Part shown: positions 842-51,757 of the stretch, piece after piece | Position numbering within the stretch: the stretch's first letter is position 1 | Layout of the letters: each line of letters opens with the position of its first letter | Source of the DNA: a virus | DNA length: 61,674 nt | Strand: one strand, 5' to 3' | IMG/VR virus record: IMGVR_UViG_3300042691_006837 | Location: 1-61,674 of that record | Notes under the pieces: generated by a model | The model's input: only the letters and a program-made list of their open reading frames with translations | The model's database searches: none | What the model was told of the DNA's origin: nothing | Made by a program: the position numbers and the translations under genes

Positions 842-1565
842 GCGGGCAAATTTTAAGCCCCCGCTTGTATCTATTTAAAGTCATTAAATTAAAAGCTGGT
901 GACATCCTCATCTTTTCAAATTCTGTTTCTGAAATCAAATGATAGTGAAGTTTGATAGGGCGCTCTGCCAAAGGAATAACATGCACTAGCGGCTGCCCCA
1001 AAAACAATTCGTGTACTACCCGATCTTTTTGTCTTTTTACAAAAATATTAATGTTTGGTTCAACAACTACATTTTTATGCATCGGTATTACTCCTGGAGC
1101 AATAATAACGTCGCTGTTTTTAACTTCGTTCCATGTTGGGGCTGTAAGCAGTACATCTATTTTTTCTTCTGTTTTAATAAGCCATGGGTTAATTATTTTC
1201 ATATGTTCATGAGTATTTACAAACCCACACCCACCAAGTTGTTTTGGATCGTGCTTTTCTATTGATGATTTTTTGTCTATAAACTGATATCTCCAAGAAT
1301 TTTCACAAATTTCAATATTTAAATCAGACCACAATGGGAACATAAACCCAGAAGAATAAAGAGACACAAATCCGGGACAAGTTTTTATGCTCCTGCTTAA
1401 AACAAGAGGGTCATTTAGATTTTCACTAAAAGTTGATTTTGGTAAATTTTTAAACCATTCAGGAATAAATGCTGACGCTTTTTTTGGCTTGGCATAGTTA
1501 AAAACTTCTTCACGTGCCGTAAAAAAATGTATATTTAAAACTTTAGGTTTACAAAACCAAAACAT
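834..1565 (-). CDS. Conserved phage protein of about 240 residues, function unknown
   Basis: A 243-residue protein with N-terminal MFWFCKPKVLNIHFF and the segments IPEWFKNLPK, CPGFVSLYSSGFMFPLWSD and LGQPLVHVIPLAERP. This layout is shared with uncharacterised proteins of T4-like cyanophages and other aquatic phages (a DUF6065-like pattern, from memory). Starting at 1565 its ATG overlaps the upstream TAA as TAATG, favouring coupled translation; an ATG 21 bases earlier (1586) is also open. It follows the tail chaperone-like gene in the tail/oxygenase block. The proteins of this type have been suggested to act on iron or sugars, but I see no motif that decides it. Confidence 0.7.
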   Translation of the reverse strand: MFWFCKPKVLNIHFFTAREEVFNYAKPKKASAFIPEWFKNLPKSTFSENLNDPLVLSRSIKTCPGFVSLYSSGFMFPLWSDLNIEICENSWRYQFIDKKSSIEKHDPKQLGGCGFVNTHEHMKIINPWLIKTEEKIDVLLTAPTWNEVKNSDVIIAPGVIPMHKNVVVEPNINIFVKRQKDRVVHELFLGQPLVHVIPLAERPIKLHYHLISETEFEKMRMSPAFNLMTLNRYKRGLKICPHE

Positions 1566-1951
1566 TAGTACGGACCCTTTGGCCACTTTATATCATTAGG
1601 GAACCCAGGTTGAAGTTTAATTTCACGGAGTGCTTTACGATATTCAATCCATTCAGATTTTTCCCCAGAAGTCATTGGCACATCAGGCAACATCGACCAA
1701 TCCGACTCACGCAAAAGTTGTTTTGCTCTTTCCCAGGCAAGCTCGGCTTCGGTTGACGTAACCGGTCCAGGGGGGGCGTCACCAGCTTCAACCCAACCAA
1801 GACCGGCGTAATCAGAACCAATCCAAGAAAGATCACCAATCTTGTCAATCACTCCATGAAGACCAAAAATTGGACCCCAATTTTCAGGAAGCGGCTGCGG
1901 TTCGTTTAGAGTTGCGCCGGTTTTTAGGTTTTTCAGTTGCCACAGTTTCAT
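1565..1951 (-). CDS. Putative tail assembly chaperone-type protein
   Basis: A 128-residue protein. Its C-terminal part reads AWERAKQLLRESDWSMLPD followed by SGEKSEWIEYRKALREI. The order 'R-x-LL-x-SDW-x-LPD ... W-x-x-YR-x-ALR' is the signature of phage tail fibre / tail assembly chaperone proteins, which assist fibre folding or attachment. The N-terminal half (residues 1-70) does not match anything I recognise. It lies just downstream of the collagen-like fibre gene and an unknown gene, consistent with helping tail adhesins. Its first 68 bases overlap the end of the upstream gene in another frame. Confidence 0.65.
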   Translation of the reverse strand: MKLWQLKNLKTGATLNEPQPLPENWGPIFGLHGVIDKIGDLSWIGSDYAGLGWVEAGDAPPGPVTSTEAELAWERAKQLLRESDWSMLPDVPMTSGEKSEWIEYRKALREIKLQPGFPNDIKWPKGPY

Positions 1952-2378
1952 TTTGTTTGTCCTTTGCCATTAAAGAAGGTTGAAGACCAGGCTGCTCTTC
2001 TGGAGCAGGAAGATTTGCACCAAGGTTCATAAAAGGTTTAATGCTGTTAACAAATGGCGGGTGTTTAGAATAAAACAACTTCTCTTCTGGTGTAAGCTTC
2101 CAATCCCTCCAACTTGCAAAGTCATTTCTTGGTTGAATATGTATATGACATCCAACATTTGCAGCTAATTGATGAATTAATTCAATTACTTCAACTGGCT
2201 GCATGATTGCCCAAATCACATTTCCATCGTTACCACGCATCATTAATTCGGTAGTTCCACCAAAACAAGTTCCAACAGATACCGAACGTGCTCGACGCAG
2301 ATCGCCTTTACGACTTTCTATTTTCATTCGATTTTCAGTTTGTTCCCAGGCTTTTTGAACTTTTTTAGTTTCTCGCAT
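1884..2378 (-). CDS. Conserved phage protein, function unknown
   Basis: A 164-residue protein starting MRETKKVQKAWEQTE; the ATG at 2378 has a GAGGAC ribosome site about 9 bases before it, so I prefer it to the ATG at 2402. The N-terminus is charged and helical, the centre (RSVSVGTCFGGTTELMMRG, MQPVEVIELIHQLAANVGC) looks like a compact alpha/beta domain, and the C-terminal tail is basic and low in complexity (KPKNRRNSKRTAAAS). Similar central segments occur in other aquatic phages. The 68-bp out-of-frame overlap with the tail chaperone-like gene falls in this low-complexity tail. Confidence 0.7.
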   Translation of the reverse strand: MRETKKVQKAWEQTENRMKIESRKGDLRRARSVSVGTCFGGTTELMMRGNDGNVIWAIMQPVEVIELIHQLAANVGCHIHIQPRNDFASWRDWKLTPEEKLFYSKHPPFVNSIKPFMNLGANLPAPEEQPGLQPSLMAKDKQNETVATEKPKNRRNSKRTAAAS

Positions 2379-2413
2379 TTCTAAAGTCCTCGTGCTACAC
2401 ATTTAACTATTTA

Positions 2414-3211
2414 TTACTGAGGGTTCCAACTTACATTTATAGAAGCACCAGAAGGTACTGTTAGTGGGTAACTTCCTGAAACAGCTACAGTGTAATTTAG
2501 TCCGCTTGCAGGATTTCCTGGATTTCCAGGGCCACCCGATGTTCCAGGGTTTCCGCCACCTCCACCTCCACCTCCCCCACCAGCTGCGCGACTAAATGCG
2601 GCGCCACCTACGCCACCTCCACCACCACCTTGGAAATTACAAGAATGCCCGCCTGGACCATAAGCACCGCCAACGCCACCACACATACCACCAGGGCCAC
2701 CCGGTCCTCCGTTTCCACCAGGGGGATAAGGAGTTCCAGCACCCCCTGGAACCCCTCCAAGACTTCCACCAGGACCACCGGGACTGCCAGGAGAAACAAC
2801 GCCAAATGCTCCATAAGGACACCCTGGGGTTCCGGGGTTACCGTACGTACCAGCACTACCACCATAACCGCCGTAGCCAGTACAACCACCCGGAAAATTG
2901 TAGCCAAACCCTGACGCTGATGCACCGTTGCCACCAGCGCTGCCTGGATTACCTTGATATCCATTTGATCCAGGCCCTCCACCAATTCCACCAGGGCATC
3001 CGCTACCACCTTTCCCTCCAGGGGCGCCACCCCCCGGATTTCCAGGATTTCCTGGGTAACCAGGAGTTCCAGGCGACCCGTAACCAGTAACAGAAACAGT
3101 AGTAATACCCACGGGCGTATTCCATGTACCGGGAGAATAAAATGTTTGGCTACCCCCAGGAGTAATAGTTTTTCCGCCAAATAACGTAATTTTAGGGGTT
3201 CCAGCAGGCAT
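2414..3211 (-). CDS. Collagen-like / polyglycine tail adhesin
   Basis: A 265-residue protein. Residues about 1-45 form a non-repetitive head (ITLFGGKTITPGGSQ, YSPGTWNTP). Residues about 46-235 are almost wholly Gly with Pro, Asn, Ser and Ala, with more than 20 X-Pro-Gly tripeptides (SPG, TPG, YPG, NPG) and a run of ten glycines. Residues about 236-265 are a beta-rich end (NYTVAVSGSYPLTVPSG). Such glycine-rich domains form the polyglycine-II sandwich in adhesins of T4-like phages (S16 gp38) or collagen-like fibres; either fits a host-recognition tip. A GAGGTGAT ribosome site precedes the ATG. Directly upstream, 8 bp away, are three 2OG-Fe(II) oxygenase genes that may hydroxylate it. Confidence 0.8.
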   Translation of the reverse strand: MPAGTPKITLFGGKTITPGGSQTFYSPGTWNTPVGITTVSVTGYGSPGTPGYPGNPGNPGGGAPGGKGGSGCPGGIGGGPGSNGYQGNPGSAGGNGASASGFGYNFPGGCTGYGGYGGSAGTYGNPGTPGCPYGAFGVVSPGSPGGPGGSLGGVPGGAGTPYPPGGNGGPGGPGGMCGGVGGAYGPGGHSCNFQGGGGGGVGGAAFSRAAGGGGGGGGGGNPGTSGGPGNPGNPASGLNYTVAVSGSYPLTVPSGASINVSWNPQ

Positions 3212-3219
3212 ATATCACC

Positions 3220-3816
3220 TCATTCGTAATAAAACCAGCCAGTAACAATGTACTTGCTGCGTTGACCAAAAACTGTGTTCCCTCGATGCGCATGAGTAAA
3301 TGCAGCGGGCCACAGTACCATAGTATTTTTTGTTGGTTTTAATCGACGTTGTTGATAAAGAAATTCTGTTTCGCCAGCTTCTTCATCGGCAAGTGTATTT
3401 AAGTACAACATGTACACCAAAACTCGCTCTGCATTTCCATTGTTACCTTGCTCACAATGCCAAACATGGTACCCACCACCGGGGTCAGTACGCTGCATTT
3501 TCATAGCAGTACCGGTAATTTTGGCGTCTTTCAAACCAGAAAATTCTTCTGTATAGGAGTCATAACATATTTGAAGACCATCAAAAAACATCCGAACAGC
3601 CGGAGTTTTATTAAACGCGGCAACAGTATGGGCGCCAAGATTCAACTCAATATGAGTATCATTCTTTTTGTGCTTTGGCATACCTTCATATTGCTGCCGG
3701 TTAAAGCCAGCTCCAGATTCAATAAGGCGCTCAAATTCGTTAATTAAATGCTGACAATACCCTTCTGGGTAAACGTCAGAATAAATTCCAATAAAATCTT
3801 TATATTCAGCTTTCAT
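3220..3816 (-). CDS. 2OG-Fe(II) oxygenase, prolyl-4-hydroxylase-like
   Basis: A 198-residue protein of the 2-oxoglutarate/Fe(II)-dependent dioxygenase superfamily (double-stranded beta-helix). The iron site can be read as H120-x-E122 in YHVWHCEQG with a distal His at 175 or 177 (FTHAHRGN). The 2OG-binding basic residue is R186 or K188 in RSKYIVTGWF. The strand GETEFLYQQ lies between. The family hydroxylates protein proline or lysine, or small substrates. The HxE in place of HxD is a known variant but should be noted. It overlaps the upstream oxygenase gene by 4 bp and is followed by the X-Pro-Gly-rich tail protein, so a virion protein is a plausible substrate (inference). Confidence 0.85.
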   Translation of the reverse strand: MKAEYKDFIGIYSDVYPEGYCQHLINEFERLIESGAGFNRQQYEGMPKHKKNDTHIELNLGAHTVAAFNKTPAVRMFFDGLQICYDSYTEEFSGLKDAKITGTAMKMQRTDPGGGYHVWHCEQGNNGNAERVLVYMLYLNTLADEEAGETEFLYQQRRLKPTKNTMVLWPAAFTHAHRGNTVFGQRSKYIVTGWFYYE

Positions 3817-4400
3817 TTAAAAGAAGGTCCTGATACCCATGCAACTAACGATTGACGGCTACCCTGCGTAACAGGAGTAACTTGGTGCAACACATACGAC
3901 GGAAAAGCAACAATAAGACCTCGTTGTTTACGTGCATTAACTGGCTCTAACCCGGTCATTATTTGAAGATTACCACCTTCGTATTGACTTGGATCGGTTA
4001 ACTGGAGCACTAAAGAAAGCTTACGACTAACCGATCTATTGCCACCATAATCTTGATGCCATCCGTACATACCATGTTCAGATTGATCGTAGTTAGTAAG
4101 TTGTAATGCTTCACCAAAACCAGTCAAATCAAATCTATAAAACTGTGAGTTAAGTGAAGAAGCTACGTGGGCAAGCCTTTCAAAAATCCATTTTGTATCT
4201 GGATCATTAGATATCCAAGACACATTAGAACGCCTAATTCGTGCTAGATCCTCACCTTGCGGGCTTCCACCAACCTGAGCTTTTTGATCCGCTTTAATTG
4301 CCTGCTCTTGCAAAAAATTAAGCTCTTGGTCGGAAAATGCTCCTTCCCACCAAACAAACGATTCAATCCGCTCTGAATATGGTGTTAGCAAGTACTGCAC
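3813..4400 (-). CDS. 2OG-Fe(II) oxygenase, PKHD-type
   Basis: A 195-residue dioxygenase with the canonical triad: H115-x-D117 in YGWHQDYGG, the distal H172 in AFPSYVLHQV, and the 2OG-binding R182 in TQGSRQSLVAWVSG. The strand EGGNLQIM between them is typical of the PKHD/PiuC-type hydroxylases. The start overlaps the end of the upstream oxygenase gene by 16 bp. Its substrate cannot be read from the sequence. It belongs to a different subfamily from both of its oxygenase neighbours, so the three are not recent duplicates. Confidence 0.9.
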   Translation of the reverse strand: MQYLLTPYSERIESFVWWEGAFSDQELNFLQEQAIKADQKAQVGGSPQGEDLARIRRSNVSWISNDPDTKWIFERLAHVASSLNSQFYRFDLTGFGEALQLTNYDQSEHGMYGWHQDYGGNRSVSRKLSLVLQLTDPSQYEGGNLQIMTGLEPVNARKQRGLIVAFPSYVLHQVTPVTQGSRQSLVAWVSGPSFK

Positions 4401-4978
4401 GCACGCTCCTTATGGGAAACAACAAAATGAATACACCTTGTTGGAACTTCTGAATTACCACCTATAAGTTGATGCTGCACCCACGAATTGCTAAACAAAA
4501 CTGTGCCTGGGCGAACGGTTTTAAAATTGATTAGTCCGGTGGCATTTGTTATTTCGTTACCCTGAATGTAATCTAATTCAATCATTTGTTTATTTGCTCT
4601 AGTGTCATGATAAATGGGGTACGCTCCATTTTCAGGGGTCTCAAGAAAAAACCATCCACAAATTTGACTATTCTTATGTACATGAATATTTGTCCCAGCC
4701 CCTTTTTGCAACTCCTGCGCCCACAGGCATTGAAAATAAAAATCATACTTTTCAACGTCATAACCTTGTGTGCGCAAAATATCTACAGATGACCACAACA
4801 AATAATCAGATAATTCACGCATATCGGGGTCATTACCGACATGTTCTGACTGAAGCATTGCCCACATGGAGTTGCGCACTTTATCCAAGTGTTTCATCGC
4901 TGCGGGCAATGCTTTTTTTACAAAGTCAGGCCGTTCATCTCGATAGACAATAGCCGGAAAATATGCGTAGCCTTCCAT
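4385..4978 (-). CDS. Putative 2OG-Fe(II) oxygenase (Oxy_5 type)
   Basis: A 197-residue protein matching the pattern of the putative 2OG-Fe(II) oxygenase family 5 found in cyanophages and marine bacteria. The iron motif is H99-x-H101 in NIHVHKNSQICGWFFL, then YPIYHDTR, a distal H169 in NSWVQHQLIGG and R181 in PTRCIHFVVSH. The ATG overlaps the TGA of the small gene upstream (ATGA). It heads the run of three oxygenases. Whether the HxH version is catalytically active is not certain from the sequence. Confidence 0.8.
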   Translation of the reverse strand: MEGYAYFPAIVYRDERPDFVKKALPAAMKHLDKVRNSMWAMLQSEHVGNDPDMRELSDYLLWSSVDILRTQGYDVEKYDFYFQCLWAQELQKGAGTNIHVHKNSQICGWFFLETPENGAYPIYHDTRANKQMIELDYIQGNEITNATGLINFKTVRPGTVLFSNSWVQHQLIGGNSEVPTRCIHFVVSHKERACSTC

Positions 4979-5211
4979 CAGCTGTTTATGTAATTGACTA
5001 ATGTAGTTGCATAAGCGGTAATGTCTGCTGCTGTTACTTCACGAGCATCAACAGGTTGACTACGACGGTTTTCAATTAGCGTATGCTGGGCAATACGGAC
5101 TGCTTCAAGCTTTGCTCGTTTTGTATCAAGCGCCATTTGATTAGCATGTCGGACGTTTTCAACACCTAACTGAATGTCTAACTGAGCTTGCTGATCTGCG
5201 GTTAAAGCCAT
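4978..5211 (-). CDS. Small conserved protein upstream of the oxygenases
   Basis: A 77-residue, mostly helical protein (MALTADQQAQLDIQLG ... TAADITAYATTLVNYINS). The ATG follows the site GGAGAATTAAAATGGC, a ribosome-site arrangement repeated before several structural genes here. Small proteins of this sort lie beside tail fibre genes in aquatic phages. It links the fibre gene upstream to the oxygenase run by an ATGA overlap. No function is recognised. Confidence 0.65.
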   Translation of the reverse strand: MALTADQQAQLDIQLGVENVRHANQMALDTKRAKLEAVRIAQHTLIENRRSQPVDAREVTAADITAYATTLVNYINS

Positions 5212-5235: not shown

Positions 5236-6633
5236 TTAAGCTTTTACATCTTTCATAACGATATTGCCATACCAAGTCGTTCCACCATTAGGGGTGAAGA
5301 ACGCCCAGATATCTGTTGCGTTTGCGGTCGTTGTACGTGATAGGGTACCAGCACCGCCTGGGAAATTGAATGATCCACCAGACCAAGCCACCGTCCGGCC
5401 TGCCGTCCCATCGTTAGTTAGAATTAGGGTGAAGGACGATGATCCAGTTGCAATTGGGTTTTGAAGAGTAAACGTACAGCTACCAGTTAGCGTAGCGGAA
5501 AATACGTTGGCTGTTTGAAGGTCAATGTTTATTGCTGTTCCGGTGTTGCCAAGAGCTACTACTGTGTCGGCGTATGCTACAGGCTGAGTATAGCCTGCCG
5601 ATGTAATACGCATACGTTCTACAGCAGCGGTAGCAAATGACAATGCGTTATCGGTATGTGTGTAATAAATCCAACCTTGATACGCTGCGCTACCGCTTGT
5701 CCCATCTGCAAACAAAATACGACCTAGACTTGAGGTTCCGCTAGAAATAGTCATTCCTACGTCACCGCTTGCGTTCCCAATTACAAGATTGGTTCCACCG
5801 GCAAAATAACTACTAGGAGAACTATTTCCGATACCAACAAGCCCCGTAGAATTAACCACAACCCGCTGTGTGCCATCCGTAGCAATCGACACTTCGTTGT
5901 CAGCGGAGAAATAAATACCGGTATTCGTATCCCCAGCGTTTGTAATTGACGGTGCAGATACAGACCCATCAGGGAAAAGCACCACTGTTGAATGAGTAAA
6001 CACACCAGTCGAGTCAGCAATAGACGCTGAAGCGGTACCATCTTTTGCCTTGATGTTAGTTACTTCAAGGTTGGTAAGGTCAGCTGTTGTGGCGTTAAGA
6101 GTGCCAACTCCAGAGATGTCACCAGTTGTATCAGCAATCGTGACGACTGAATTTTGAATTAGCTTGCCGCTGGTTAAGTCAAAGCGAGCAATCGCGTTAT
6201 CGGTCGCGCTAGCCGGGCCTACAACGTCCCCAGTTCCGCCCACTTGAACAAAATCAGAGCCATTCCAGGCTACTAAAGCTTTAGCACCAGCTGCGATTGT
6301 TACTCCGGTTGTTGCAGCGCCTTTTAAAACTACGGCTCCATCAGACTGGTTTACTACAACATAAGCTTTAGAAGAGCTGGGGGCGATAATATTACGGCTC
6401 GTTCCGGGGGTTCCGGTTGGAATTAAAATTGCACATCGGGCTTCGTTAGATGCTCCTGACCCTGTAGTGCTTAGAGTCCAATCGCCAGAAGTAACACTAG
6501 CGGTTGCGGAGCCAGCAATTGAATCCTCGACTAGCTCAGTAATACTATCGTTAACGACTTGGCCCCAGGTACCAGACAACTCGCCGGTAGTCGGAAGGGC
6601 GAAGCCCAATAAATTAGTGTAATTGGTTGCCAT
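5236..6633 (-). CDS. Tail fibre protein
   Basis: A 465-residue virion protein. The N-terminus (NYTNLLGFALPTTGELSGTWG, about residues 4-24) is the attachment-like segment that recurs in fibres of aquatic phages. The remainder is rich in Ser, Thr, Gly and Ala with beta-type repeats such as GTLNATTADLTNLEVTNI and SITNAGDTNTGIYFSADN, typical of trimeric distal fibres. The C-terminal 100 residues (TLTGSCTFTLQN, GTAGRTVAWSGG, TWYGNIVMK) resemble the end domains of many phage fibres. It precedes the small protein, oxygenase and collagen-like genes and probably forms part of the host-recognition apparatus. Confidence 0.75.
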   Translation of the reverse strand: MATNYTNLLGFALPTTGELSGTWGQVVNDSITELVEDSIAGSATASVTSGDWTLSTTGSGASNEARCAILIPTGTPGTSRNIIAPSSSKAYVVVNQSDGAVVLKGAATTGVTIAAGAKALVAWNGSDFVQVGGTGDVVGPASATDNAIARFDLTSGKLIQNSVVTIADTTGDISGVGTLNATTADLTNLEVTNIKAKDGTASASIADSTGVFTHSTVVLFPDGSVSAPSITNAGDTNTGIYFSADNEVSIATDGTQRVVVNSTGLVGIGNSSPSSYFAGGTNLVIGNASGDVGMTISSGTSSLGRILFADGTSGSAAYQGWIYYTHTDNALSFATAAVERMRITSAGYTQPVAYADTVVALGNTGTAINIDLQTANVFSATLTGSCTFTLQNPIATGSSSFTLILTNDGTAGRTVAWSGGSFNFPGGAGTLSRTTTANATDIWAFFTPNGGTTWYGNIVMKDVKA

Positions 6634-6644
6634 GTTTGGTCCTT

Positions 6645-7709
6645 TTAAGCTGCTACATCAATCTCTTCCCAGTTTGGTACCTGGGCGTCGTTAATTTGGG
6701 TCCATCCTGATATAAATACTACTCCAACAGCGCCAGTAGCGGATACCCCGGTTACTAACTTGCTGTCATCAATCTCGACGTCTACTGTGCCAATTGCCCC
6801 GGTAGCCGAAACTCCAGACGGTTTTGCAATAACAACAGGTGTAATGGCCTGGACTGCCCCAGTGCCGCTAACCCCGGTCACATTAACTACTGCGTCATAT
6901 TGGGGTGTGACTGCTCCAACTGCTCCTGTACCTTGCACCCCAACCGGTTGAATGTACTCGCTTGTAGAGAACGTACAAGTTCCAACAGCTCCTGTGCCCT
7001 CAACCCCAGTAACAAGAATTGCATCATCAACTTCGATGGTTACGGTACCAACATTACCGGTACCTTCAACCCCCGTAACAATAAATATTTTACCAATTGA
7101 GAATCCTACGGCGCCAACTGCGCCTGTACCTTCAACACCATTTGGTACAAAAGAATCATCAACTTCAAAAGTTACGGTACCAACCGCGCCTGTGGCCTCA
7201 GATCCAGTTACAACGTAACTAATTAACGGGACCGTAGTCCCAATCTGCCCCGTACCTTCAACACCATCTAGGATTACTACCTCTCCAACAGAGATAGATA
7301 CATTGCCAACAGCACCGATACCTTCAACACCTGTAACTACTAGGGCGTCATTAATCTTGACCGCAACATCGCCTACAGCACCGGAACCCTGAGCCGATAT
7401 AGATCCGTTACCCCAAGCACCGCCGCCCCAATTGATTGAACCCCATCCATCAAGATAAACCGTACGGTTAAACGGCACATTATTTACTGCGCCTGTACCT
7501 TGAACTCCAGACACAGTTGGTGTGACTGTGAGAGCTACATCATTAGTAGAAGCGGTACCTGAAACCCCAGTAACAGAGGTAGTTACTGCAAACGAAACAG
7601 TACCTACGGCCCCAGCACCAGATGTGCCGGTTACTGCATAGTAATAGAGATCTGTACCCCAGGCACCTTCACCCCAGGGTGGTTCTCCCCAACCAGCGTA
7701 TACCGGCAC
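6645..7709 (-). CDS. Repeat-built tail/virion protein
   Basis: A 354-residue protein made almost wholly of about 14 copies of a roughly 20-residue unit whose core is GVEGTGAVG (variants GVSATGAIG, GVQGTGAVG), separated by beta-like segments such as TVTFEVDDSFV. Two tryptophan-glycine motifs, GWGEPPWGEGAWG near residue 6 and GWGSINWGGGAWG near residue 89, interrupt the array. A similar W-G motif occurs in the gp10-like tail protein at 58425-60314. The regular repeat suggests an elongated beta-solenoid or bead-string fibre. The end reads SGWTQINDAQVPNWEEI, a compact cap. The family is not named to me. Confidence 0.7.
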   Translation of the reverse strand: MPVYAGWGEPPWGEGAWGTDLYYYAVTGTSGAGAVGTVSFAVTTSVTGVSGTASTNDVALTVTPTVSGVQGTGAVNNVPFNRTVYLDGWGSINWGGGAWGNGSISAQGSGAVGDVAVKINDALVVTGVEGIGAVGNVSISVGEVVILDGVEGTGQIGTTVPLISYVVTGSEATGAVGTVTFEVDDSFVPNGVEGTGAVGAVGFSIGKIFIVTGVEGTGNVGTVTIEVDDAILVTGVEGTGAVGTCTFSTSEYIQPVGVQGTGAVGAVTPQYDAVVNVTGVSGTGAVQAITPVVIAKPSGVSATGAIGTVDVEIDDSKLVTGVSATGAVGVVFISGWTQINDAQVPNWEEIDVAA

Positions 7710-45141: not shown

Positions 45142-45167
45142 CCCCCGCCCAGTGCGGGGGTCTTTTT
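45142..45167 (+). terminator. Terminator between the converging arms
   Basis: CCCCCGC (45142-45148), CCAGT loop, GCGGGGG (45154-45160), then TCTTTTT. It is a good rho-independent terminator for the rightward arm, ending at the stop codon of the leftward 2,196-residue protein. In the leftward sense the same stem is followed by few Ts, so stopping there would be weaker. Confidence 0.9.
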
Positions 45168-48100
45168 CACTCGGTCTCGCCGTAGTACCCCATGTCCCGC
45201 AAAGTTTCTATGAGGTTTTTATTGATTGGGATGCCGCCTGTCACCGAAGCAAGCCCACGAGATTTCATACGGGTCTTGATTGATTTTTGTAACCCAGCAG
45301 GGGTAATCGGGTACATCGGGTACATTTGGTTAAACCGAGCAATTTTGTCAATTACTCGATCCTTGAAGTCATCGTCCTGAGTATCAACTGCCATAAAGAA
45401 AGCGTTCATCAGGTCGGTGCGTTTGCTAATGATGTCCTGCTCCATACCCTTCATCTCGATGTTAGCCTTCTGGCGCTGCGAGACTTTTTCCGGGGCAAAG
45501 CCAAGCGACTGGGCAAGTGCATCTTTTGGCGAGATGTTGGAAACCAACTCGTCACCTTTTAGGGTCAGAACACCTTCGGTCGAGTACCGTGCTGCAACCA
45601 TCGGCTGCTTAAACACGGCAGGCATGATCTTCTCTGCACCGCGATAGTAGTGCCCGTCGTTATAAAGTTTGAAAGCGTCGGCAAAATTGACACCCAAAGC
45701 TGCAGTCGGCCCAAGCATATTGATAATCATGTTCTGGAACGCAGTAACCTCATCTTGGCTCTTGCGTGCATCACGGAACCAGAGGTCATTCAGGCTCATA
45801 CGATCTGCGAAGTTCATGCCGGTAGCGGTGGTAACCAAGCCCCGAGTCATAGCGTCGCCAGCCGTGTCACCGAATGTCTGTGCCATCCAGTTCTTAAACC
45901 AATTCTCAAAGTCAAGCGGTGGCTCATCGTCATCAGAGAACACGGCGTACATAGCCTCAATAACCGACGAACCAACAGAGAACAACGGCATACCTGTGGC
46001 ACCAGCAAAGAGGAACGTCATGCCAAGAGTACCCAGCAAGCGGTCACGGCCTTCTTGACGGATGCGCTTTACCTCGTTAGTAATTGCTGCATCTAAATCT
46101 GCAGCGTTTAACGTCGGCTGTCCGTAGCGAGCACGCTCACGAATAATGTTGTCTCGAATTTGTCCAAGCTGCTCTTCGGTTGGCTTATCCATCCACTCAA
46201 ACCCACTACGAGTTAGCAGATAAGTCATCTGTTGCGGGAACTGCTTGAACTGCAGGATGACTTTAGCGTAAGCGTTTTGCAGATAGCGGGGCTTATTAAG
46301 CGTGGAGTAATCAAACATTGCCCGGTAGGTAAGGTCTTTAGCTTGATCAACTGCTTTCTTAAACGCTACTTCTTTAGAGTCACCGCCCTTAATTGCACTA
46401 TCGTAAGCCATACGGAACGCACTCATCGCCATGACTTCACGGTTAAACCGCTCGGCGTGGTGGAACATAGCACTGAAGGCTTTCATGATGGTGTCTACCC
46501 GACCCGAATACATATTGGATGGGGCTTCAGCAACACCGGCCAAGTCGTGTGACTGCGTAATATCAATCAAACCACTGGAAACAAAAATGTCGTAAGCAGC
46601 TTTTTCAGTGGGGTCTAACTTAGCATTACCAATACTAGGCATAGCCAGATTTCCATCAGCGTCACGGAAACCAGAACTCATAAACCGTTTACTGTACCCA
46701 AGCAGTGTGCCAGCAGATTTAGTTTTTCCAAACCGTGCCGACAGTACAGGGAAGCCGATAGCCGGGATGCCCAGCATGTTGACTAAAGCCGAAGCAGGTG
46801 CAGTTAGATACCAAATAAACGACACGTTAGAAAGCAGGGATGGAATAGTGCCGGTATCCGTCGGGTTCATTACGTATTCTAAGCGGCGCTCAAGCTCAGA
46901 TACGTAGTCGCTATCGGCTGCGTTAGCACGCTCTTTAGCCAATGCCGAAGCAGCATTAAGTTGCTCAAACATCGTCCGTGCATACTTAAACCGAGACTGC
47001 TGGTAAGCCATGTGGAACGATGAATCAGTGAACGCCCGTAGCATATCCTGGGATGCACCCGACACTTGCTTACGGTTGATAAACATCTTACGAACGCTTT
47101 TATTAGGTAGCGTCAAATAATAAAGCTGCTCTACGCTGTCTTTAATGTTCTCACGAAGCGTTGTTGAATCATTACCAGTAGCGTTGTCAATAATCTTTTC
47201 AATATCGCTAAGAATTGCCAAGTCTTTAAAGTTGTTTTTTAGCGTATTGCGCATGTCGTTGCTAGGAACAATCTTTCGATTATCTCCAGCCTTCTTCATC
47301 TCTGCGGCAAGTTTTGCCTGATAAAAGTTGCGCTGTCTTGCGCTATCAAACATGTAAAACTCTGAGTTAGGCCCACTACCAACCTGTATTGAAAAGCGAC
47401 CAAACCGCTTTAACGGGAAGTATGGCTGGATGCTGTCTTCTTCAAACTTTTTGGTCAGTTCTTTTTTAACAGCAGCAATCTCTGCTGCTGTCTTACCTTG
47501 CCCAATCATTGATAGTTCAATGTTGCGAAGCAACGTGGCTTTGTACTCTTCCATTCGTGCTTTATAAAAATCACGAACTCGCACATAAAGCTGTTTGCCG
47601 GTGGTGTCTAGACTATCCCAAGCTGCTTTAAGCGCTGCATTGCCTTTGGCATCAACAGATGGATCAATACCTTGCAACGTGCTATCAATCATTAACAGAC
47701 TGAGGTCTTTGTTACGCCCAGGGTGCGCTGACTGATACTTCTGCCAGTCTTTAGTAATTTTTGAAACTTCATTCAGGATGGCGTTTCGATCCTCCATCAT
47801 GTTTTCAATTGCTTCAATGAAGTTTCGTGCTGAATCTCCTAGGCGCCCACCAATCAGATCTTGTAACTGCCGTAACGTGAAAGCACCCAAAATATACTTA
47901 CGAGTACTGTCACCAACAGAGTCGACCATAATCCCGACATTGTTTTTAACGATGTTCCACGAAGGGCGTTCAGCTAAGAAATCCAAGAATCGACGAGCGA
48001 TGCCAACATCCGTCGGCATAGGCCCAGGCTTAAACGTGCCAGCGTAAACGCTCTTTCTCTTAGTTGGCGCAGCACCAGCGTTTAAAGAATTAGTTAACGG

Positions 48101-51100
48101 GAACGATGGTGTATCACGCTTAACCGTAGCTGACATAAGAATGTCAGCGTTTACATACGTGGCAAAAAGTGCATTGTCTCTGTCCGCACCCATTAATTGA
48201 GCAGCGAAGCGAACAAACTTAGACCAAATTGAAGTATCAGACGACTTGTATTTCAGCGTCCGTAGCAGCTTATTGAACTCTTCGTTTGAATAGGCCTCAG
48301 CAATAAACTCGTCTAAGTTAGTAAAGCCATACTCAGCTACTTTCGGGAACGACGACTTGGCGTACTCGTACAGCTTCTCTAGCTCGTTTAATGCTTTACG
48401 CTGCGCCCTATTAAGCTGGTCTGGGTTACGAATAGCGTGTGCTGTAGCAGCATGTATTACTTCGTGGAAGAACGTGTAGAACGACAACCCTTTGCGCTCG
48501 GCGTTGAGGTTGATAATGTCCTCGGCAGGGAAGAACGTACCAGACGCACTTAGAGTTGGCACCGCTTCTTTGTACTTTTCCCGAACCAGATCATATTTCA
48601 GGCTCTTAATAACTGCGTCAGGCAACTGCTTTTTCCTAGCAATCGTCTCAAGTGCGTTAACTACGTAGACCGGATCAGACAGATCTCGGTTGAAGTATGC
48701 GTTGTAAACGTCGGGGTATAGGTCTTGCAGGTCCTGCAATAGGCTATCAAACGTAGCCTTGACCTTGCTAACTTCCATTTGAACAAGCTCGTTTTGCTTG
48801 TTGATGTAGACCGACGTAGGCAGATTTAGATCAAGTAGTCTCTGCGACAGCGATAAAAAGTATGTGTTGCTTGTGATGCGGCGCAGCACATCAAGAGCGC
48901 CATTAAGGTCGTTCTTTTCTAGCTTAGCGACTACGGCAGGGTGCAGTGGTTTAAATAGCGCCGCTGGGTTTTTAGAGTCAAGCGGAGTCTCTTTGATTAG
49001 TTTCTGCAGTTCAGCTTCGCTCTTATCAAGGCTCTTCTCAACCTCTTTGATTTTTCTGCGGTACTCGTTGAGCGCCTTAATATTGCCAACGCTCTTGTTC
49101 AGCTCATACTTGTAGCGGTCTACGGTACGGTCAAAAGCGGCAAGAACCTGCGCCGGGAAGTTTTCTTCAATGTACGCACGGAAAAGTTTTGCCTGCTCAC
49201 CGTTTTGCCCAGAGAACGTATCGCCCTTGGGGGTGTCGTAAGCAAAGTCAAATGCAGCCGAGCGCATGGCCAAGCCGTAGTTCCACTGGCTAAAGTAGTT
49301 GTACGCAGCCTGCTCTTCGGGAGAACGGCTTTTTTCGGAGCTAAGGCGTAGCGCATTAAGGATACGGCTGACACGTGCAGGGATGCGGGTGTCGGAACCA
49401 AACGATTCTGTAGCAGCCTGTTCTGCGGTGTAACCAAGAGTCTCGGCCTTGCGGCGCGCCATAAAGTCACGGAACTGCGTACGAAGCTCGTTAAGCCCAC
49501 GCAACGTCGTGAGGTCAGGCATCTTGGTGCGGCTCTTAAGCATCTGAGCCTGCTCTGCAGCCGACTTGCCAGCCATATAAGAGGCAAAGTTTGCCGCAGC
49601 TTGTGGGTCGTCAATCAACGAGAACTGATTAAAGAAGTCGTTGACCTGCTGTTGGTTTGCGTTACGCTGGTCTGGTTTGATGTTGTAGGGACCAATGTAT
49701 TCCTGAATCTCATCAATAAAATTCTTGATGGCAGACTTATAGTTGGTTACGCCCTGTTCGGCTTCAGCACTAGACTGAAGATTATTCAAAAAACCGTATA
49801 ACTGGTCAGACCTCTTTCCAAAGTCAAAAGGCGCAGCTTGCGTTTCAGGCGCTTCAATTTCAACCCGCTCAGGTGCAATCCCAGCCGGACGCTCAAGCTG
49901 AAACTCAGGCTCACCCATCTCCATCAACGATGGCAGATTACGCTCAACGTCACCTTCAGGAATGGTCAGATCAAACCCAAGTTGCTCACCTTTAGCTAAC
50001 AAAGCACCTTGTTTACCTTTGCGTGCCAATGCAGCTTCAAGCCGCATGCGCTCTTCGGGAGACTGTGCCGAGTCTAAGTCGGCTTGGGTAACAGGACGAA
50101 GCTCTGTTTTAAACTTAATCTGCCCTTCAGCTACTCGCCGTAATACTTCCTTAGCATAGGATGTGCCCTTGCCGTTCTTAGCGTTGTAAAGAATACGGTC
50201 GGCTTCGTTGCCAAAGAAGCCAGCAGCCATGAGATCTTCACGGGTAACGGCGGCTTCTGCGTCGGTTAGTTTGTAAAGTTTACGAATGGAACCGAGTTCA
50301 CGGTCCATGGCATTCAGAGGGCCAATAGACTCACCACGGCGAAGCGCACGCTCTTTGGCCTGCAGTTCTTGCAGATATGCAGAGGCTTCCTCAAGCCGAG
50401 GATCTTCTGGGTCGACTCGTTTTAAGTCTTGAATGTATTGCTGAGCAGTCTGAATCCGCTCGTTTAATGCAACACCGACATCCCCTGTTCCACCTCCAAC
50501 GACATCAGGAGCCCCGCTAGTTGGTTCCAGTCCTCGTCCTTCAGTTGCAGTAGCTCCTGCGGCAGGTTGTCGCTGTATTTCTTCTTGCCCGCCAGACACA
50601 GGAACGCCTCGCTCACGTGCTCCGGGGATAGCTCCAGTACCTTCATCTGTGTCCTCCTGAGTAAACCCAAGGTCAAGCTGGTCAAACGTAGTTGTGTCTT
50701 TGAACTCGGCGCCAGTTTCTGCAGCAGGACGTCGCTGCCCAATACCTTTGATTGCGCCTGCAGTACCAGAGATACCCCCGCCGCCGACTGCGCCTCGAAC
50801 TCCAGACTCAACCAAGCGATTAAATTCTTTGCTGCCCCAGGCTTCTGCGTTGTCGGCAACAAACTTTTCTGCAGCAATACTTATTGCTTCTTGGGCTGCT
50901 TCAGTCGGACCCTCGGTAGCAGCACCGGTAACAACCCCAGCAGTTGCGCCACGAGCGATACCCGGAGGCATGCCAGAGCGCTCAAGGATCTTTTCTACAA
51001 CCCCAGCCTTCATGCCGGGTGTGAACTGACGAACTAACGCAGCAGGCAGAATCGAGTCAAGAGCGGCTGCAACCGAGCCAGCCAGCAGCGAAGCACCAAG

Positions 51101-51757
51101 CTCCATCTGGCCTTCAGTCTCTTCGCCGGTGTAAATATTTTGGAAAACTTCGGGGGCGTTAAGCGCATAGGAGCCAAGGAAAGCACCAGCTCCACCACCT
51201 CGAACCGCACCTTTTGTAGCAGCCTGAGCCGCATATCGGGTAGCCGCAGCTTCTGCCGCCTCTCTAGCAGCCGCCGTTTTAAGAGCTTGTTGTGCAGCCA
51301 TACGGCTACCGAGCGCAGCACCGCCCACACCAGGGATAATCGCGGTAGCGATATTTGGAATTTGTTCAGCTACGGTCTCAGTAATAAACGGCAGGACATC
51401 GCCAAGTCCTTTAACATCTGACAGCTCTTTATAACGAGCACCGTACTTTTGCTCAATCTCACGTTGTGTTTCAGCAGCTTCTTCCATCTGCCGCCGAGCG
51501 TATTCATCAGCACCAACAGCTCTGGCTGCCATGGCGGGCAGCACATCACCTAGTAAAGATCCAGTCTGCTTAGCTCCACGAACAATAGCGCGGCCTGTCA
51601 TATCAAAGAACCCAGTGTCTTTAGTGGGTTCTTGAGGCGGTTCTATCGGCGTAGCTTCAAGCTCTTGGAGGTACTCGACTAGACGTTTTGCACTAGCAGT
51701 ATCCCCAGCCGCATGCGCTTTACGTAAAGCCTCATACAGTTGATTTAGGTCTGCCAT
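45167..51757 (-). CDS. Giant internal virion / polyvalent protein with HExxH
   Basis: A 2,196-residue protein, the largest here. Residues about 100-330 contain hydrophobic Ala/Gly-rich stretches (IPNIATAIIPGVGGAALGS, GAFLGSYALNAPEVFQ) likely to insert in membranes. Around residue 1097 the motif FFHEVIHAATAH has HExxH as in zinc metallopeptidases. Near residue 1445 there is PYFPLKRFGRF, the PLxRFG motif of giant phage and prophage polyvalent proteins. The remainder is mainly helical. Proteins of this size at the end of the tail operon in podoviruses are usually ejected with the DNA. The metallopeptidase-like motif could open the cell wall or process host proteins. Confidence 0.8.
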   Translation of the reverse strand: MADLNQLYEALRKAHAAGDTASAKRLVEYLQELEATPIEPPQEPTKDTGFFDMTGRAIVRGAKQTGSLLGDVLPAMAARAVGADEYARRQMEEAAETQREIEQKYGARYKELSDVKGLGDVLPFITETVAEQIPNIATAIIPGVGGAALGSRMAAQQALKTAAAREAAEAAATRYAAQAATKGAVRGGGAGAFLGSYALNAPEVFQNIYTGEETEGQMELGASLLAGSVAAALDSILPAALVRQFTPGMKAGVVEKILERSGMPPGIARGATAGVVTGAATEGPTEAAQEAISIAAEKFVADNAEAWGSKEFNRLVESGVRGAVGGGGISGTAGAIKGIGQRRPAAETGAEFKDTTTFDQLDLGFTQEDTDEGTGAIPGARERGVPVSGGQEEIQRQPAAGATATEGRGLEPTSGAPDVVGGGTGDVGVALNERIQTAQQYIQDLKRVDPEDPRLEEASAYLQELQAKERALRRGESIGPLNAMDRELGSIRKLYKLTDAEAAVTREDLMAAGFFGNEADRILYNAKNGKGTSYAKEVLRRVAEGQIKFKTELRPVTQADLDSAQSPEERMRLEAALARKGKQGALLAKGEQLGFDLTIPEGDVERNLPSLMEMGEPEFQLERPAGIAPERVEIEAPETQAAPFDFGKRSDQLYGFLNNLQSSAEAEQGVTNYKSAIKNFIDEIQEYIGPYNIKPDQRNANQQQVNDFFNQFSLIDDPQAAANFASYMAGKSAAEQAQMLKSRTKMPDLTTLRGLNELRTQFRDFMARRKAETLGYTAEQAATESFGSDTRIPARVSRILNALRLSSEKSRSPEEQAAYNYFSQWNYGLAMRSAAFDFAYDTPKGDTFSGQNGEQAKLFRAYIEENFPAQVLAAFDRTVDRYKYELNKSVGNIKALNEYRRKIKEVEKSLDKSEAELQKLIKETPLDSKNPAALFKPLHPAVVAKLEKNDLNGALDVLRRITSNTYFLSLSQRLLDLNLPTSVYINKQNELVQMEVSKVKATFDSLLQDLQDLYPDVYNAYFNRDLSDPVYVVNALETIARKKQLPDAVIKSLKYDLVREKYKEAVPTLSASGTFFPAEDIINLNAERKGLSFYTFFHEVIHAATAHAIRNPDQLNRAQRKALNELEKLYEYAKSSFPKVAEYGFTNLDEFIAEAYSNEEFNKLLRTLKYKSSDTSIWSKFVRFAAQLMGADRDNALFATYVNADILMSATVKRDTPSFPLTNSLNAGAAPTKRKSVYAGTFKPGPMPTDVGIARRFLDFLAERPSWNIVKNNVGIMVDSVGDSTRKYILGAFTLRQLQDLIGGRLGDSARNFIEAIENMMEDRNAILNEVSKITKDWQKYQSAHPGRNKDLSLLMIDSTLQGIDPSVDAKGNAALKAAWDSLDTTGKQLYVRVRDFYKARMEEYKATLLRNIELSMIGQGKTAAEIAAVKKELTKKFEEDSIQPYFPLKRFGRFSIQVGSGPNSEFYMFDSARQRNFYQAKLAAEMKKAGDNRKIVPSNDMRNTLKNNFKDLAILSDIEKIIDNATGNDSTTLRENIKDSVEQLYYLTLPNKSVRKMFINRKQVSGASQDMLRAFTDSSFHMAYQQSRFKYARTMFEQLNAASALAKERANAADSDYVSELERRLEYVMNPTDTGTIPSLLSNVSFIWYLTAPASALVNMLGIPAIGFPVLSARFGKTKSAGTLLGYSKRFMSSGFRDADGNLAMPSIGNAKLDPTEKAAYDIFVSSGLIDITQSHDLAGVAEAPSNMYSGRVDTIMKAFSAMFHHAERFNREVMAMSAFRMAYDSAIKGGDSKEVAFKKAVDQAKDLTYRAMFDYSTLNKPRYLQNAYAKVILQFKQFPQQMTYLLTRSGFEWMDKPTEEQLGQIRDNIIRERARYGQPTLNAADLDAAITNEVKRIRQEGRDRLLGTLGMTFLFAGATGMPLFSVGSSVIEAMYAVFSDDDEPPLDFENWFKNWMAQTFGDTAGDAMTRGLVTTATGMNFADRMSLNDLWFRDARKSQDEVTAFQNMIINMLGPTAALGVNFADAFKLYNDGHYYRGAEKIMPAVFKQPMVAARYSTEGVLTLKGDELVSNISPKDALAQSLGFAPEKVSQRQKANIEMKGMEQDIISKRTDLMNAFFMAVDTQDDDFKDRVIDKIARFNQMYPMYPITPAGLQKSIKTRMKSRGLASVTGGIPINKNLIETLRDMGYYGETE

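Follow-up and report, generated by a model that had tools for sequence, protein, structure and literature searches.

The window analysed here is the whole of the IMG/VR virus record IMGVR_UViG_3300042691_006837, 61,674 bases of an uncultured water phage. Its terminase is 48-57% identical to the terminases of the pelagiphages HTVC027P and HTVC023P, the freshwater phage DSL-LC04 and the Synechococcus phage MinM2. On the minus strand three genes for 2-oxoglutarate (2OG)-Fe(II) oxygenases (C, B and A) lie directly upstream of the gene for a glycine-rich protein (G). The open reading frames (ORFs) and coordinates of this cassette were confirmed, as were the overlapping starts of the enzyme genes to which a preliminary description of the DNA had pointed: C and B share 16 bases, B and A share 4 (ATGA), and a gap of 8 bases separates A from G.

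4385..4978, minus strand: C, PF13759/TIGR02466-type 2OG-Fe(II) oxygenase, 197 amino acids, optional in relatives (PF13759 4.2e-9; phrog_81)
3813..4400, minus strand: B, PKHD/PiuC-like 2OG-Fe(II) oxygenase, 195 amino acids (PF13640 5e-14)
3220..3816, minus strand: A, prolyl-4-hydroxylase-like 2OG-Fe(II) oxygenase, 198 amino acids (PF13640 6.7e-13)
2414..3211, minus strand: G, Gly-rich and X-Pro-Gly-rich protein, 265 amino acids, proposed substrate and tail adhesin (composition, orthologues, model)

The Pfam matches of A, B and C are all above the curated cut-offs. The active-site residues of A are H120-x-E122, H175, H177 and K188, and they are invariant in 80 sequences. The iron ligands take the form HxE with Glu in place of the usual Asp, and the distal ligand would be H175 or H177, of which H177 better matches the spacing in prolyl 4-hydroxylases (P4Hs). 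A Lys at the 2OG position is a feature of collagen P4Hs; A has K188 there. When a profile of 33 A sequences was run against the PDB, only two sequences were found at E<0.1, both of them prolyl 4-hydroxylases (5c5t and 6iuq). The AlphaFold model of A (predicted local distance difference test, pLDDT, 83.8) has the viral collagen prolyl hydroxylase of PBCV-1 (vCPH, 5c5t) as its best Foldseek match (E 2e-10, probability 1.00), and prolyl hydroxylases account for 50 of 50 among the matches listed. By its modelled fold as well as by its iron ligands and 2OG Lys, A is thus classed as a prolyl-4-hydroxylase, with hydroxylation of X-Pro-Gly as its predicted activity.

A and B are clearly different subtypes inside PF13640. 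B carries H115/D117/H172/R182, with Arg as 2OG ligand as opposed to Lys in A. Both its HxD...H...R motif and its PDB matches (PKHD-type hydroxylase 3dkq, 6e-9; PiuC, 9ghl) place it with the PiuC/YbiX PKHD-type hydroxylases, but it stays far below the NCBIfam equivalog cut-offs (66 vs 143 bits). C is over the PF13759 cut-off (37.1 vs 27) and under that of TIGR02466 (37.8 vs 62.5). In C, HxH (H99, H101) replaces HxD as putative iron-binding motif, and these two residues and H169 are all invariant in 82 sequences. The ligands read earlier from the window alone (H120/E122, H115/D117/H172/R182 and H99/H101) were all recovered, and the ligand residues of the three enzymes are invariant across 51 to 82 relatives. 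The three subfamilies assigned at that time hold in part: there are only two Pfam families (PF13640 twice and PF13759), with A and B as distinct subtypes.

A fourth protein, D, is present in 27 of 74 non-redundant G loci and has an invariant HxD...H...R. It carries the PHROGs label ferrochelatase, and in family and PDB searches no Pfam or PDB family supports an oxygenase identity. Because of its motif we read D as a probable 2OG oxygenase. The PHROG labels ferrochelatase (phrog_2954, phrog_3531) and DNA endonuclease V (phrog_274) are matched by 2OG oxygenases, namely by D at 3271-3900 of locus L073 and by the window genes at 3813-4400 and 3220-3816; these labels look wrong.

G consists of 37% Gly and has 25 X-Pro-Gly tripeptides, in agreement with the more than 20 noted before; 71% of its prolines precede Gly. 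For this composition 13.1 +/- 2.7 tripeptides are expected, and 25 was reached in 0 of 20,000 shuffles. The longest Gly-X-Pro run is GSPGTPGYPGNPGNPG at residue 45. The ORF is real, as its orthologues come after A in 74 of 74 distinct loci. G has no match in Pfam, PHROG or NCBIfam families, and tblastn with the low-complexity filter on returned no match among annotated phages.

The AlphaFold model of G, of fair confidence (pLDDT 80.8), has its strands mainly towards the two ends, and the part in the middle has little regular structure. A structure search gave weak matches only, to phage tail tips (Bxb1 tail tip, E 0.03) and to the Pam3 fibre (E 1.0), none of them significant. A collagen triple helix was considered for G and rejected: there is no match to Collagen (PF01391), and the longest unbroken Gly-x-y run has 8 triplets. 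Hence G is more probably a tail-tip domain of polyglycine-II type than a triple helix. X-Pro-Gly-rich partners elsewhere (L283, L605 and L187) do match PF01391. The phage collagen hydroxylation put forward in the preliminary description therefore survives in one half, as a P4H-type enzyme tied by synteny and co-occurrence to an X-Pro-Gly-rich protein, and has to be given up for collagen. In the relative L051 (3-3962 and 9929-14169) several long collagen-like proteins adjoin the cassette, with up to 177 unbroken Gly-x-y triplets; these are mostly SGYSGFSG, and the longest protein is almost without Pro.

We call G a tail protein because of its position between genes for a tail fibre and for tail fibre assembly. 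The order on the minus strand is F, t, C, B, A, G, h, p, with the following neighbours:

5236..6633, minus strand: F, tail fibre protein, 465 amino acids, upstream of the cassette (phrog_9942 tail fiber, 1.2e-17)
4978..5211, minus strand: t, small conserved protein of 77 amino acids between tail fibre and oxygenases (position kept in relatives)
1884..2402, minus strand: h, conserved protein of 172 amino acids directly after G (position kept in relatives)
1565..1951, minus strand: p, tail fibre assembly chaperone, Phage_tail_APC (PF16778 1.9e-15; phrog_4912 tail fiber assembly)

No family match was found for t in Pfam and family searches, nor for h in Pfam, PHROG and NCBIfam. We take G to be a probable polyglycine-type tail adhesin, with host binding and a place in the virion as predicted properties.

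The cassette was followed through 81 distinct A proteins from IMG/VR, and for 74 of them the downstream sequence extends over 900 bases or more. G comes after A in every one of these 74 distinct loci; whether oxygenase and X-Pro-Gly genes stay adjacent in related phages had been asked in the preliminary description. In 44 loci G follows directly with a median gap of 7 bases, and in 30 another gene lies between, in most of these D. B immediately precedes A in 73 of 75 distinct loci, and C was found in 37 of the 63 non-redundant loci that show this region. Moreover, within the G family Pro amounts to 9.15% in loci with D versus 7.49% in loci without (p=4e-4), and Pro is the most different residue. 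As these loci represent one phage group, synteny alone is insufficient to show function.

Gly-rich viral proteins were therefore sampled in IMG/VR by DNA patterns blind to oxygenases (PGx5, Gly runs, GGx repeats and mixed PGG), and each sampled record was then searched for PF13640 anywhere. The p-values of these surveys ignore kinship, without tree correction. Among the matches listed, 77 records contained a protein with 24% Gly or more; 22 of these were PF13640-positive and 55 negative. The median X-Pro-Gly content per 100 amino acids was 4.45 in positive and 0.81 in negative records (p=9e-7); a content of at least 1.5 was reached in 19/22 versus 13/55 (odds ratio 20, p=5e-7). The PGx5 pattern, which matches both strands because it is palindromic, gave mostly collagen-like linkers, most without oxygenase, and was used as one stratum only. 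In the two scans without Pro in the pattern, oxygenase-positive records again exceed negative ones in X-Pro-Gly (1.63 vs 0.60, p=9e-4) and in Pro (6.1% vs 2.9%). For three exceptions with high X-Pro-Gly content (L187, L240, L543), PF13640 was found elsewhere on the record; PF13661 brought no gain.

In a residue-by-residue comparison of positive and negative records, the largest difference among the 20 falls on Pro, and among xG dipeptides on PG. This bears on the view that the enzymes do act on G, but with other residues (Lys, Asn, Asp) instead of Pro as their main target. B and C come from families whose substrates differ or have yet to be assigned, and Lys-Gly dipeptides, the site class of collagen lysyl hydroxylases, are likewise raised among the Gly-rich proteins from oxygenase-positive records (p=0.002, uncorrected). 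Given that the Pro signal far exceeds that of any other residue and that the fold neighbours of A are prolyl hydroxylases, we regard this view as very improbable.

The same association could arise from descent and habitat, if a small number of aquatic phage lineages happen to combine oxygenases with polyglycine adhesins richer in Pro and the two are not related as enzyme and substrate. Many oxygenase-positive proteins are in fact concentrated in few families. Furthermore, the samples consist of the matches listed and are hence arbitrary instead of random, and many records are metagenomic fragments, which weakens the case for hydroxylation of G as well. Nevertheless the link survives when the 120 proteins are collapsed to 67 sequence families (13 oxygenase-positive, 54 negative; median 4.26 vs 0.80, p=9e-5). 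It also persists inside GC bins; oxygenase-positive contigs are lower in GC, so that base composition works against the Pro-Gly effect.

A second, independent sample was based on GNxGNxGNxG with x free. Here Pro stands at x in 17/22 oxygenase-positive versus 11/75 negative records (p=7e-8), with the lowest p of all 20 residues at this position; after removal of the window clade the counts are 10/15 versus 11/75 (p=9e-5). Four of 11 exceptions tested contain PF13759 instead, compared to 1 of 18 Pro-free controls, and several other exceptions are short fragments. Two other tail genes, counted by hand on the same set, served as controls. PF16778 occurs in 7/24 Pro-positive and 3/25 Pro-free records (1/17 vs 3/25 without the window clade), PF13884 in 2/24 and 5/25. 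Outside the window clade these tail families have no link to Pro-Gly. With the link intact after all these steps and absent from both control genes, descent and habitat appear an improbable explanation.

Seen from the enzyme side, sampling by the motif GGYHVWH gave 118 A-like genes among the matches listed. With at least 54% identity to A, 24 of 25 of those listed have a Gly/X-Pro-Gly-rich neighbour (22 of 22 with adequate flanks). In addition, a scatter of divergent A-like enzymes have Gly-rich partners from other families (L185, L614, L739, L775). Several observations weigh against the hydroxylation of G. Among the matches listed, the neighbour is present in only 2 of 16 genes at 45-54% identity and in 8 of 77 below 45%, in sum 10 of 93 below ~54%. 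The 24 kb of HTVC027P that were read encode no Gly-rich protein to go with its A-like gp73, and in the cyanophage ACG-2014i the A-like gene adjoins a structural-region protein of 1,180 amino acids which is not Gly-rich. Conversely, some Pro-Gly-rich Gly proteins are on records without known 2OG family. Finally, B correlates with Pro-Gly as well as A does, and the families nearest to B have substrates that are different or unassigned, so that the decisive enzyme may be either. A-like enzymes therefore have more than one partner, and the Pro-Gly-rich pairing is a property of some clades. The preliminary description had taken oxygenases that occur as often without a Pro-Gly-rich protein as with it to speak against the idea. 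This is half the case: most GGYHVWH-family enzymes are without such a neighbour, yet oxygenase-positive viruses have Pro-Gly-rich proteins far more often than negative ones.

The related pelagiphage HTVC023P offers a contrast in favour of the pairing: its enzymes are B-, C- and D-like, with no A-like one in its tail cluster in the stretch read, and its Gly-rich gp70 contains 2% Pro and a single Pro-Gly. For MinM2, the 30 kb that were read show no gene with a 2OG annotation, and none of the coding sequences checked is a Gly-rich tail protein. Many other A-like genes have a different genomic context. One clade of A-like enzymes, ~34-52% identical and 244-254 amino acids long, is found among glycosyltransferase-like genes (L736:1256-4526, also L726, L758, L732 and L755). 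One glycosyltransferase-like gene of these clusters contains the motif GRLGNQMFQYA, typical of GT11 fucosyltransferases. The substrate setting of this clade is a different one, possibly hydroxyproline glycosylation.

Such diversity leads to the question whether the oxygenases of the window act on other targets altogether, for instance the tail fibre F, a host protein such as EF-Tu or nucleic acid, with G merely as operon companion. A-like enzymes without any Gly/X-Pro-Gly-rich partner fit this explanation, as does the distant clade among glycosyltransferase-like genes. The P4H of Pseudomonas putida (4j25, 4iw3), which has EF-Tu as substrate, is among the structural matches of A, and a single type of substrate would not require as many as four enzymes. 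It leaves unexplained, however, why of all 20 residues it is Pro before Gly that rises in Gly-rich proteins of oxygenase-positive viruses, including unrelated families, and why the Pro content of G varies with D. We thus consider other targets unlikely.

We favour the cassette as a virion-protein hydroxylation module in which A, perhaps together with B and D, hydroxylates prolines of the polyglycine-type tail adhesin G, and assign a probability of about 0.6 to this reading. A would use O2, 2OG and Fe(II) to hydroxylate Pro in the X-Pro-Gly tripeptides of G, presumably on nascent G before or during folding onto the tail. B would probably contribute to the same reaction or act on further residues in G or in the tail fibre, as would D in relatives, and C may have a similar role. 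With hydroxyproline in front of Gly, extended polyproline/polyglycine-II helices would be favoured and the adhesin stiffened, or hydroxyls would be added at its surface. The genes, the fold class, the active-site residues, the synteny and the statistical link of oxygenase and Pro-Gly come from the data themselves; from them we deduce G as substrate and tail adhesin, the residue modified and the benefit. A wider version holds that in several phage lineages a cassette of up to four oxygenases matures a polyglycine-II adhesin by prolyl hydroxylation, and that the tail tip carries a helix bundle, not of collagen, which hydroxyproline stabilises or decorates; it is put forward tentatively, as we give it somewhat less than an even chance. 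The joint occurrence, far above chance, of such enzymes and of Pro in such proteins suggests that some phages chemically modify their own adhesins.

Two further proteins of the window are mentioned for completeness. Upstream of the tail fibre, at 6645-7709 on the minus strand, a protein of 354 amino acids is made of VTGVEGTGAVGTV-like repeats; gp68 of HTVC023P has a similar repeat and ending. A protein of 2,196 amino acids (45167-51757, minus strand) matches DarB-like antirestriction and, weakly, virion RNA polymerase families.

2OG oxygenases are common and largely unexplained genes of aquatic phages. The co-variation points to a substrate class and a residue and makes the question testable. 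In the wider version, hydroxyproline would represent a post-translational layer on phage host recognition that is invisible to sequence alone. If hydroxylation of G holds true, the function of the adhesin would depend on oxygen, iron and 2OG of the host, and adhesins produced recombinantly in the absence of the enzymes would be immature. Protein engineering could then also draw on phages for compact prolyl hydroxylases.

Among known systems, the Gly-rich tail adhesins gp38 of S16 and PP01 (PMC12892980) and gp24 of Pam3 with 39% Gly (PMC9608196) resemble G by a Gly-rich core on a beta domain, and Pam3 has a tail-fibre chaperone partner gene, as here. Unlike G they are described without a hydroxylase; G is Pro-rich, and its Foldseek match to Pam3 is not significant (E 1.0). 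The mimivirus enzyme L230, a lysyl hydroxylase/glycosyltransferase, shows that a giant virus hydroxylates its own collagen-like proteins (Luther et al. 2011, as cited in PMC8968730). It differs from the cassette in that Lys is modified, the host is eukaryotic, the enzyme is bifunctional and the substrates are true collagens. The P4H of Bacillus anthracis acts on collagen-like peptides (Schnicker and Dey 2016, as cited in PMC8968730) and is, like A, a prokaryotic P4H, in its case for Pro-Pro-Gly peptides, but it is bacterial and not part of a phage tail module. Closest to A is PBCV-1 vCPH, its best structural match and likewise a viral P4H, which acts on X-Pro-Gly-type peptides (Eriksson et al. 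1999, as cited in PMC9301287). It comes from an algal virus instead of a phage, A has HxE and not HxD, the identity is 19%, and vCPH is not known to adjoin its substrate. A survey from 2022 states that the viral use of prolyl 4-hydroxylase "remains cryptic" and raises tail collagen as a possible target (PMC9301287). In open-licence PMC text we found neither a phage pairing of a prolyl hydroxylase with such a tail protein nor their co-variation. Viral prolyl hydroxylation as such is already known from PBCV-1; the pairing in phages and the co-variation are the new part.

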